This document shows positions 30,366 to 33,513 of a stretch of DNA of 41,707 nt, in pieces. The translations under genes were made by a program, and so were the position numbers. This DNA is from Lachnospiraceae bacterium (GTDB taxonomy: Bacteria; Bacillota; Clostridia; Lachnospirales; Lachnospiraceae). Where the stretch lies: positions 1 to 41,707 of the forward strand of contig JAILEN010000028.1 of the NCBI GenBank assembly GCA_024687655.1, in the 5' to 3' direction. The notes under the pieces were generated by a model that made no database searches, was not told the origin of the DNA, and saw only the letters and a program-made list of their open reading frames with translations. How positions within the stretch are numbered: the stretch's first letter is position 1; each line of letters opens with the position of its first letter.

Positions 30366-31130
30366 TTATAACTGTGAAAGCGCCTGAAGGGCATCCTGGG
30401 GGATGATCATCTCTGAGATCTCCGTCAGGTGGCAATCCAACCCCAGGGTCTCTGGCAGGGGTGATGAGTACTCACTTAAGATATTGCACAGGCGGTTGAA
30501 AACCTCCGGCGTAGCCTCGTCCATGGAAAGAATGAGGCAGTACTCGTCGGTATAGAGCTTGAGGAGCCTGCTGCTGCCGGGATAGGTAAAATCAAAAGCC
30601 CGGGAAGCATCCACCGCATCATCCAAAGTATCAAAGCAGAAGGAACGAACCACATTTTCAAAGGGAACATCTGCCTCGGTGCTCTCGGAAGCGGCCTTTT
30701 TGGCATTTTTACCGGCAAAGAGCTTAAGAATGTCATTAGCGGTGTGGCTGTAGTCGATGGAGGGCAGGGGGCTTGTGAAGTCCTCAAGGGAAATATCATC
30801 ATAGTCCTCATAATCCTCATCCATATCCGAGGAAATATCCGAAAGGTCCGCAAAGCTGGAAAATCTGGTGTCCAGCTCATCGGGATAGGGCACCTTGGTA
30901 ACGATGAGTATGATGCCGTCTGCAGAAACCGGAATGGCCTCTATCACAAGAGGGATATCCTCCGCCTCAAAGCCATATTTGTAAGAGGCCCAGCGAAGCA
31001 TCTCCTTGAAGAGAGTGCGGGCCTTGGGGGTACCGTAGGCAAACTCCGAAAGTCGGATATTACGCTGCTCCAAGTCCTCCCGGCTAAGTGTGCACCGGAT
31101 TTGGTTTTCATTTATCTTTTCTATTCTCAT
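30366..31130 (-). CDS. mecA: Adaptor protein MecA
   Basis: Adaptor that delivers proteins to ClpC-ClpP for degradation. The 254 residues have the N-terminal substrate-binding domain (MRIEKINENQIRCTLSREDLEQRNIRLSEFAYG), an acidic linker (DMDEDYEDYDDISLEDF, about 97-115) and the C-terminal ClpC-binding alpha/beta domain (from FRSFCFDTLDDAVDASR-like sequence to the end). AAAGG precedes the ATG. It is transcribed alone toward the shared terminator, and a promoter and two 14-base palindromes lie upstream. Confidence 0.92.
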   Translation of the reverse strand: MRIEKINENQIRCTLSREDLEQRNIRLSEFAYGTPKARTLFKEMLRWASYKYGFEAEDIPLVIEAIPVSADGIILIVTKVPYPDELDTRFSSFADLSDISSDMDEDYEDYDDISLEDFTSPLPSIDYSHTANDILKLFAGKNAKKAASESTEADVPFENVVRSFCFDTLDDAVDASRAFDFTYPGSSRLLKLYTDEYCLILSMDEATPEVFNRLCNILSEYSSPLPETLGLDCHLTEISEMIIPQDALQALSQL

Positions 31131-31168
31131 ATATCAACCTTTATAAAAATACGCATATTTGTATTTAC

Positions 31169-31198
31169 ATTATAGAGTATAACCCGGTCCTAAGTAAA
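31169..31198 (-). promoter_or_regulatory. Promoter of mecA
   Basis: On the minus strand, TTTACT (31198-31193), 18-base spacer and perfect TATAAT (31174-31169), about 40 bases before the mecA ATG. Confidence 0.7.
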
Positions 31199-31199
31199 G

Positions 31200-31243
31200 T
31201 TAATAATTATTAAGAATTATTACAGAAATTTAATAATTATTAA
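31200..31243. repeat. Two identical 14-base palindromes, 30 bases apart
   Basis: TTAATAATTATTAA occurs at 31200-31213 and again at 31230-31243. Each is a perfect palindrome and their centres are exactly 30 bases apart, about three helical turns, so a protein would meet both on one face. They abut the mecA -35 on one side and lie 27 bases from the putative RNA promoter on the other. They could be operator sites or an UP-like AT-rich element. Confidence 0.6.
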
Positions 31244-31269
31244 CAAAGGTTAACAATGGCCTGAAACTA

Positions 31270-31298
31270 TTGAAAAGCAGATAGTTTGCTGATATATT
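31270..31298 (+). promoter_or_regulatory. Promoter of the putative noncoding RNA
   Basis: TTGAAA (31270-31275), 17-base spacer and TATATT (31293-31298). The spacing is ideal and each element differs from consensus by one base. The inverted repeat AAACTAT/ATAGTTT (31264-31287) overlaps the -35. No ORF with a ribosome site follows for 490 bases. Confidence 0.6.
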
Positions 31299-31304
31299 AA
31301 GCGC

Positions 31305-31735
31305 GGATCAAAGATATGATCCTGTAAATGATAGCTGCATACCGACATTTTCTGTTCATCATATTCTAAATTCGATAGTCATTCCATCAAAGAGTTTATG
31401 AGAAGAAGGTTTTGGAGAGTTTTTATCAGGGATATACCTATATACCACGAGGTTCCTGCCTCCACACGGAAAATGGTAAAGAACTAGTGTAAAGAATAAT
31501 TTTACGCATCCTGGGGAGGATCGAAGTGACAAATGGTATGCCAGGCTGAGATGGGAGGTGGTATGAAAAACGTAAATAGCCGAGACTGACAGCAGTAATG
31601 TACGTATTGACACTGCTGTCGGAGAAACCGGTGTTTGTATCATTATTTGAGTAGTCTGTAAATAAGTTCATAGGGACTTAATAAAACGAATTCAGAAATC
31701 AGATGGGGGCAGGATACATATCCTGCTCCTGCTTT
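31305..31735 (+). ncRNA. Candidate structured noncoding RNA of about 430 bases, family unknown
   Basis: This stretch, with flanks the largest gene-free gap in the window, is bounded by a promoter and a terminator-like hairpin, while the next gene has its own promoter. It can form many local stems: GGATCA/TGATCC (31305-31322) at the 5' end, GTGTAAA/TTTACGC (31487-31507), ATCCT/AGGAT with a GGGG loop (31508-31521), and GACAGCAGT/ACTGCTGTC (31588-31620). All frames are broken by stops and the small ORFs lack credible start sites. I checked by eye for RNase P RNA, tmRNA, 4.5S RNA, group II intron domain V and CRISPR and saw none. It may instead be decayed sequence. Confidence 0.45.
31706..31735 (+). 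terminator. Terminator-like hairpin ending the putative noncoding RNA
   Basis: GGGGCAGGAT and ATCCTGCTCC pair over ten bases (one wobble) around ACAT, then TGCTTTATG. The T tract is short. Confidence 0.55.
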
Positions 31736-31761
31736 ATGTTGAAGATAAGATGTGCTATAAT
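31733..31761 (+). promoter_or_regulatory. Promoter of the GH18 gene (extended -10)
   Basis: TGCTATAAT at 31753-31761 is an extended -10 element; a weak -35 TTTATG lies 17 bases upstream at 31733-31738. The ATG is 37 bases downstream of it. Confidence 0.65.
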
Positions 31762-31797
31762 GCCTTAATGAGCGAAACAAACTGAAGGAGATGCTTT

Positions 31798-33513
31798 ATG
31801 AACAAAAAAAAGAAACCTGCAAGCGGTCTGTATATAGCACTGGCTTTCGGCCTTCTGATCCTGACGGCGGGTCTGTTGATAATTGCCAAAAAATACGCAC
31901 CTACCCGGGAAAGGATGGAGCTTTCCGAGGTATATGAGAGCCATTTTGAAAATGAGGCAGCAGTCATTTTAAACGGGGAATACATGCCCACTGAGGAGAC
32001 GGACAGCTGTGCATACGGTGTGATACTTTCCGGGACACCCTATCTCCAGTTGGATTTTATTAAAAACAATATCGATAACCGCTATGTTTACGATGACAGC
32101 GAAAAAGTGCTTCGGTACACCACAGATACGGACATCATTTCCGTGAATATCGGTGATAATACCTACAGCGTGGGCCGTACTGAGGAGAGCATAGATGCAC
32201 CCATTATCGAGCAGGAGGGAGCCGGGGTTTATCTTGCGGTGCAGTTTGTCCAGAAGTATTCGGATCTCGGATATTCCGTGGAAAGTGACCCGGATCGTAT
32301 CATCATCCAGCTGGCGGGCTGGGAGAAAAAGACGGCTACCATCAAAAAGAACACCCAGATCAGACGGCTGGGCGGCCCCAAGAGCAAGATCCTGAAGGAT
32401 GTCAGTAAGGGTGATCACGTCATAGTTTTGGATGAGATAGGAAAATGGACCGAGATCATGACCGATGACGGGGTTATGGGCTACTGCCTGGATAAGTACA
32501 TCATTGACAAGAATACCGAGACAGTGGAAGCGGTTTTGCCCGAGAGGAGCTACAAGCATATCCTTATGAACGAAAAGGTTTCCATGGGCTGGGTCCAGAT
32601 CATGGACAAGCCGGGCAACGTCAGTATTGACAGCGTACTCAATAAGGCTGGTGACGGCATCAATGTCATCTCACCCACTTGGTTCAGACTCAGTGACAAT
32701 CAGGGTGGGATAGATAATATCGCCAGTTATGACTACGTCAACAAATGTCACGATATGGGCATACAGGTTTGGGGTCTGGTCAACAATTTCGACAATAAGG
32801 ATATTTCCTCCAATGCAGTTTTAACCTCCGCCTCCGCCAGGGATAATCTCATCAACAATCTGATCGGTGCGGCGGTGGCATACGATATGGATGGTATCAA
32901 CGTGGACTTCGAATTTCTTCAGCCCGCAGATGCAGATGGTTTTCTGGAGTTTATCAGGGAGCTTTCCGTAAAGTGCAGGAACAATGATCTGGTGCTTTCC
33001 GTGGATAACTACGTTCCCTCATCCTTCCATGCATTTTATGATTACGAGGAGCAGGGCAAATATGCGGATTACGTGGTGATCATGGCCTACGACGAGCATT
33101 ATTCTGGCAGCGATGATCCGGGCAGTGTGTCCAGTCTGGGCTTTGTGGAAAAGGCGGCGTCGGATATGCTGGAATATGTGTCGCCTGATCAGATAATCCT
33201 GGGCATGCCCTTTTATTATCGCCTGTGGATCACCAATGAAACTGGGCTTACCAGTTCCGTGATCCATATGGATGAGACGGACAGTATGCTGGAAAAGTAT
33301 GGAGCCACCACCAACTGGATTGATGAGGTGGGTCAGAGTTACGCAGAGTTTGACTATGAAGGATCGCATTATCAGACCTGGATCGAGGATACCAGATCTC
33401 TTGAGCTGAAGCTGCAGGTTATGGAGGAAAATAACCTGGCGGGAGCAGCCTTTTGGAAGCTGGGTCTGGAACCCGAGAGTACATGGGATGTGATCAACGA
33501 GTATTTGCAATGA
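31798..33513 (+). CDS. Membrane-anchored SH3 and GH18 domain hydrolase
   Basis: Predicted cell-wall-facing glycoside hydrolase of 571 residues. A single N-terminal membrane helix (LYIALAFGLLILTAGLLIIA, about 11-30) is followed by a copper-amine-oxidase-N-like region (about 50-175), a bacterial SH3 domain (about 180-236, ending GVMGYCLDKYI) and a GH18 barrel (about 255-571) with the catalytic DGINVDFE motif, Glu372. The layout is that of YaaH/SleL and YdhD relatives, which cut peptidoglycan or chitin-like chains. AAGGAG precedes the ATG. It overlaps sua5 by ATGA and so heads the unit leading to the ATP synthase genes. Confidence 0.9.
   Translation: MNKKKKPASGLYIALAFGLLILTAGLLIIAKKYAPTRERMELSEVYESHFENEAAVILNGEYMPTEETDSCAYGVILSGTPYLQLDFIKNNIDNRYVYDDSEKVLRYTTDTDIISVNIGDNTYSVGRTEESIDAPIIEQEGAGVYLAVQFVQKYSDLGYSVESDPDRIIIQLAGWEKKTATIKKNTQIRRLGGPKSKILKDVSKGDHVIVLDEIGKWTEIMTDDGVMGYCLDKYIIDKNTETVEAVLPERSYKHILMNEKVSMGWVQIMDKPGNVSIDSVLNKAGDGINVISPTWFRLSDNQGGIDNIASYDYVNKCHDMGIQVWGLVNNFDNKDISSNAVLTSASARDNLINNLIGAAVAYDMDGINVDFEFLQPADADGFLEFIRELSVKCRNNDLVLSVDNYVPSSFHAFYDYEEQGKYADYVVIMAYDEHYSGSDDPGSVSSLGFVEKAASDMLEYVSPDQIILGMPFYYRLWITNETGLTSSVIHMDETDSMLEKYGATTNWIDEVGQSYAEFDYEGSHYQTWIEDTRSLELKLQVMEENNLAGAAFWKLGLEPESTWDVINEYLQ

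Follow-up and report, generated by a model that had tools for sequence, protein, structure and literature searches.

The window, that is, the whole stretch of 41,707 nucleotides analysed here, carries a mecA gene on the minus strand at 30366-31130, recognized by a Pfam MecA match, and, at 31798-33513, a gene whose GH18 protein includes an SH3-like part. The gap between the two divergent genes, which an earlier note based on the sequence alone had put at 667 bases, spans exactly 31131-31797, and no plus-strand ORF of at least 30 amino acids lies in 31214-31790, in agreement with the same note's description of a unit free of coding frames. The order mecA, gap, GH18 recurs in six of eight members of the genus, with gaps of 595-743 bases. 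The two members left out are G006, whose contig stops within the gap, and G001, in which GH18 was not found.

The elements mapped in the gap lie on the plus strand. A sigma-A type promoter, TTGAAA-N17-TATATT, is located at 31270-31298, as previously read, and, like its counterpart in most relatives, has CTA in front of it. A TTGnnn-N17-TATAAT-like promoter is common to the six genus members, with a box spacing of exactly 17 bases in each of them. The terminator-like hairpin that had been noticed sits at 31704-31731, and such a hairpin is common to the six genus members; its T tail is weak in the window (CTTTATGTT), and clear T-tailed terminators are readable in four relatives (G004, G005, G002 and G003). 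Farther downstream, the extended -10 promoter that GH18 had been said to possess for itself, TGCTATAAT, is found at 31753-31761 and in all six genus members. The conservation of promoter and terminator makes a transcript at 31305-31735 likely. This predicted noncoding RNA of about 430 nt is further delimited by the absence of ORFs and by its conservation in the genus.

The stretch 5′ of the RNA promoter, 31199-31255, contains AT-rich operator-like repeats with a putative regulatory role. The palindrome TTAATAATTATTAA occurs twice (about 31199-31214 and 31229-31244), and a direct repeat, TTAACAAAGGTTAACA, is found at 31240-31255. Operator-like repeats also precede other promoters of the same genome (G000:C168:27247-27289 and G000:C17:28725-28801); the TTAATAATTATTAA palindrome is among the shared repeats, and direct TTAACA repeats occur at C172 and C168. 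The exact form TTAACA-N4/5-TTAACA is present genome-wide only upstream of the RNA promoter and upstream of the gene after uvrB, where it lies, again, 14 bases 5′ of a TTGAAA/TTGAAT box. The gene that follows uvrB in G006 and G007 codes for a response-regulator-like protein and is without the TTAACA repeat. No regulon was identified from the repeats that the promoters share, which perhaps mark a small regulon including the RNA; shared regulation of the RNA and the locus near uvrB is a lead, not a result.

Other origins of the interval were rejected. No phage or plasmid record matches, a decayed kinase, MinD or small ORF finds no significant homology, and the outcome against which the earlier note had warned, a decayed gene or mobile element, was excluded on these grounds. 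Antisense ORFs of 94 and 77 amino acids are not conserved, and a blastn match in G055 falls within a coding region and is attributed to chance.

Structure and conservation within the genus

Taken by itself, the window sequence has an ordinary folding energy (z -1.6), so stems read from this single sequence are no proof of structure. The 5′ hairpin proposed earlier, GGATCA/TGATCC, is indeed present at 31305-31322, but it is species-specific and not conserved in relatives. The 9-bp stem GACAGCAGT/ACTGCTGTC forms hairpin P4 at 31588-31620, and direct reading places a hairpin of other sequence at the same position in G007 and G004.

In blastn, the window and G007 share 68% identity over 220 bases (31329-31548), as against 35% for GH18 and 40% for mecA at the fourfold-degenerate sites of the same two genomes, which are near saturation. 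Global alignments of the predicted transcripts score 3 to 20 SD above shuffled sequence in nearly all genus pairs; window-G003 and G007-G005 do not follow the rule.

The most informative structural element, and one that the earlier note does not list, is P1, a 12-pair helix between AGYTGYATWCC and, about 200 bases farther 3′, GGWATRC(C)AAGCT, as seen in alignment A4, which runs from AGYTGYAT to the purine-rich element. In the window, its 5′ strand is AGCTGCATACCG (31333-31344) and its 3′ strand TGGTATGCCAGGCT (31534-31547). In A4, 93% of the P1 cells are paired, and compensatory changes on both sides occur at four pairs; when the partner is slid by 1-3 columns as a control, pairing falls to 19-44%. 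RNAalifold recovers P1 and the P2 hairpin unaided. For G003, the segment aligned as P1 partner is not the best one available. The covariation sample consists of six genus sequences only, which fall in two clades, and the double changes in P1 therefore represent few independent events.

Two hairpins are enclosed by P1. P2 (31360-31411, approximate bounds) is of variable sequence, and its stem is maintained via double changes in relatives (RNAalifold pairs 28-33 with 74-79 of A4). P3, CAGGGA/TTCCTG at 31427-31458, holds TATACCACG in its loop at 31441-31449. Next to the 3′ strand of P1 lies a purine-rich, Shine-Dalgarno-like element, GCTGAGATGGGAGG (31545-31558), which is kept in the genus. It is followed by a directly read frame of eight codons, ATGAAAAACGTAAATAGCCGAGACTGA (31563-31589), whose peptide is not conserved.

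With a covariance model, R1, each of the six genus genomes yields a single strong match, at this locus, scoring 115-163 bits. Across 295 genomes, every other match scores below 26 bits, and none of the best 14 weak matches elsewhere adjoins mecA or GH18. With one strong copy per genome and only weak matches beyond, the RNA proper is a single-locus feature of the genus. The structured noncoding RNA unit suggested in the earlier note is thus supported by the related intergenic regions to which it had pointed: among six genus members the region is conserved, P1 is kept by compensatory changes and no conserved protein-coding frame is present. Within the genus, the aligned sequences leave the predicted P1 helix certain.

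The interval in other Lachnospiraceae

Among 79 Lachnospiraceae GH18 loci, most have a divergent mecA upstream, the arrangement seen in the window, and gaps that range from 600 to 3700 bases. In L068, L070, L072-L076, L079, L083, L088 and L090, mecA is co-directional with GH18, the gap measures 167-435 bases and the TATAYCAC motif described below is absent. Many gaps contain a fusion of a Hanks-type kinase with a MinD-like domain, often followed by a second MinD-like ATPase. The kinase with the C-terminal MinD-like domain stands beside mecA in L058, L060, L062, L063, L077, L081, L084 and L085. Twenty-four gaps contain a small ORF, marked by the signature YMRDY, that is without a match among Pfam and NCBIfam families. 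Its products (L091, L082, L127, L123 and 20 other loci) are about 65-85 amino acids long, with YMRDY as core and an end near F-D-K-I/V. Searches of the window genus turned up no kinase-MinD fusion and no small ORF, the one for the small ORF having been run without a positive control. Gaps without an ORF of 90 codons are those of L106, L107, L116 and L132; L097 has one on the minus strand only. In sister genera, a purine-rich element (e.g., AGCTGAGAAAGG in L062) follows the last gene with no ORF behind it, and after it come a terminator and then the GH18 promoter.

A short motif recurs across these gaps. TATAYCACR occurs 29 times on the plus strand of the gaps, where 3.7 are expected from control sequence, and never twice in one gap. 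Around the noncoding copies, variants included, the flanks form a hairpin (33 cases, mean z -1.4, combined z -8.2). In the window, UAUAYCACR occupies the P3 loop at 31441-31449, with a z of its own of only -0.7. Nine copies inside the kinase gene show no hairpin (mean z near 0), and for this reason they may be plain protein coding; the I-Y-H of the kinases listed above is always written ATA TAY CAC at the motif, again without a hairpin. Two other explanations of the motif were rejected. As a minus-strand extended -10 promoter it fails in that GTCAC-type copies lose the TATA part, and as a conserved peptide (IYH or YTT) it fails in that frames and stop codons, judged by eye, vary among loci. 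In L107 and L116, possible 19-aa peptides, MENGPWNVYTTACTLPWVT and MENSLWNIYTIFCALPQVT, lie just before the motif hairpin and overlap it; they may be coding, or a by-product of conserved RNA.

Long-range pairing of the 5′ end is encountered outside the genus. In kinase-free relatives, the transcript's 5′ end forms a helix with a segment 100-300 bases downstream, as in L107, L116, L132 and L133, examples picked by eye. An automatic test for such helices at 16 loci of relatives gave a combined z of -6.2, with values near -1.5 in relatives and -0.35 in the genus, where P1 starts about 30 nt downstream of the start site.

Origin and function of the RNA

Judged by these comparisons, the interval holds a real, structured and conserved RNA element, which is a new orphan family. 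The reading that we prefer, and to which we assign about an even chance, is that of a stand-alone structured noncoding RNA, descended from a leader and acting in trans. Transcription of the RNA would be driven by a dedicated sigma-A promoter (31270-31298) and would end at the hairpin near 31731. P1 would bring the 5′ part beside the purine-rich Shine-Dalgarno-like element and enclose the hairpins, one of which would show UAUACCAC in its loop. With P1 as the scaffold, the motif in the loop and the purine-rich arm could then serve for regulation in trans, either by base pairing or by binding a protein. As to origin, the RNA may descend from the leader or UTR that precedes the small ORF or the kinase/MinD operon in other Lachnospiraceae, the operon genes having presumably been lost in the window genus and the RNA retained. 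This descent from a leader or UTR of the mecA-GH18 operon is suggested by the shared purine element next to P1, by synteny and by short motifs. Since R1 recognizes no locus outside the genus with confidence, synteny and short motifs are what the argument for descent draws on.

The RNA and GH18 are neighbours on one strand, the RNA immediately 5′ and a terminator separating the two, and this synteny is kept in six of six genus members. The RNA might accordingly be a leader or attenuator acting in cis, which starts at 31270-31298 and sets part of GH18 expression through the choice between termination and read-through, or between P1 and other folds; the 5′ part of G005 can form another hairpin, in competition with P1. 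However, the extended -10 promoter of GH18 lies past the terminator in all six genus members, and sister genera, too, place a terminator and a GH18 promoter between the upstream operon and GH18. We consider control of GH18 in cis unlikely. Alternatively, the transcript could be an mRNA that encodes a very short peptide, or an RNA of dual function, with the purine element as ribosome binding site and the mini-ORF as a shrunken remnant of the small ORF that 24 relatives carry in this gap. In the window, the Shine-Dalgarno spacing to an ATG is good (31545-31565), but G007 has no ATG there, the candidate peptides (MKNVNSRD, MVLYL, MQKNNG etc.) show no similarity, the genus yields no match to the small-ORF profile and sister genera retain the purine element with no ORF behind it. 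Such a coding role is improbable.

A remnant of the kinase/MinD/small-ORF operon that is decaying, transcribed and functionless has only a slim chance. Relatives hold these genes in the same interval and the genus is without them, and the loop motif is surrounded by readable traces that resemble 'KDxxIYH'; a tblastn search with the L063 kinase against G004 aligns eight residues only, with an E-value of 0.36. Against decay, the RNA is far more alike between species than fourfold sites are, P1 covaries, the promoter is kept in six species and no protein homology reaches significance. These signs of selection and covariation, together with the lack of protein homology, leave decay strongly disfavoured.

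Beyond the preferred reading of a trans-acting RNA in the window genus, a broader proposal can be put forward, though tentatively. Lachnospiraceae as a family may possess a regulatory RNA between mecA and GH18 whose 5′ long-range helix and UAUAYCAC loop hairpin outlast near-total sequence turnover. It would control a small-protein or kinase/MinD operon in some lineages and would have become a free-standing, trans-acting RNA after gene loss in others. The loci also form a natural series from operon leader, through leader with small ORF, to RNA alone, which offers a test of how an mRNA leader turns into an independent RNA. For a poorly studied gut and rumen family, the element adds a well-supported orphan RNA. 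The wider locus brings together an unstudied kinase-MinD fusion, a MinD-like ATPase, an unassigned small protein and a conserved RNA loop motif.

Comparison with known RNAs

The window gap matches no Rfam 15 family at or above the gathering threshold, which agrees with the earlier by-eye failure to place it among known RNAs. Relaxing the E-value adds only two chance matches, both eukaryotic, and Rfam gave no match in 26 relatives either. In the literature, nothing was found on a mecA-GH18 RNA, the candidate list of PMC8040213 lying outside this comparison.

Like 6S RNA, the window RNA would be a stand-alone RNA in which a long-range helix closes about 190-230 nt. Unlike 6S RNA, it lies at a mecA-GH18 locus without an RF00013 match, and the 6S RNA of G002, G003, G004 and G007 is found on other contigs, which led us to reject this identity. 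mRNA leaders that control translation through anti-Shine-Dalgarno helices form a second point of comparison: in relatives, a 5′ hairpin appears to sequester the kinase ribosome binding site, and others have the 5′ long-range helix ahead of the small ORF. In contrast to such leaders, the RNA of the window genus is followed by no ORF, and a terminator and a separate promoter precede GH18. Finally, comparative genomics of intergenic regions has yielded orphan structured ncRNA candidates (PMC6429828, PMC8632094, PMC8040213). Set beside these, the window RNA is without a match to any Rfam model; like them, it has an unassigned role, occupies a long intergenic region and shows covariation.
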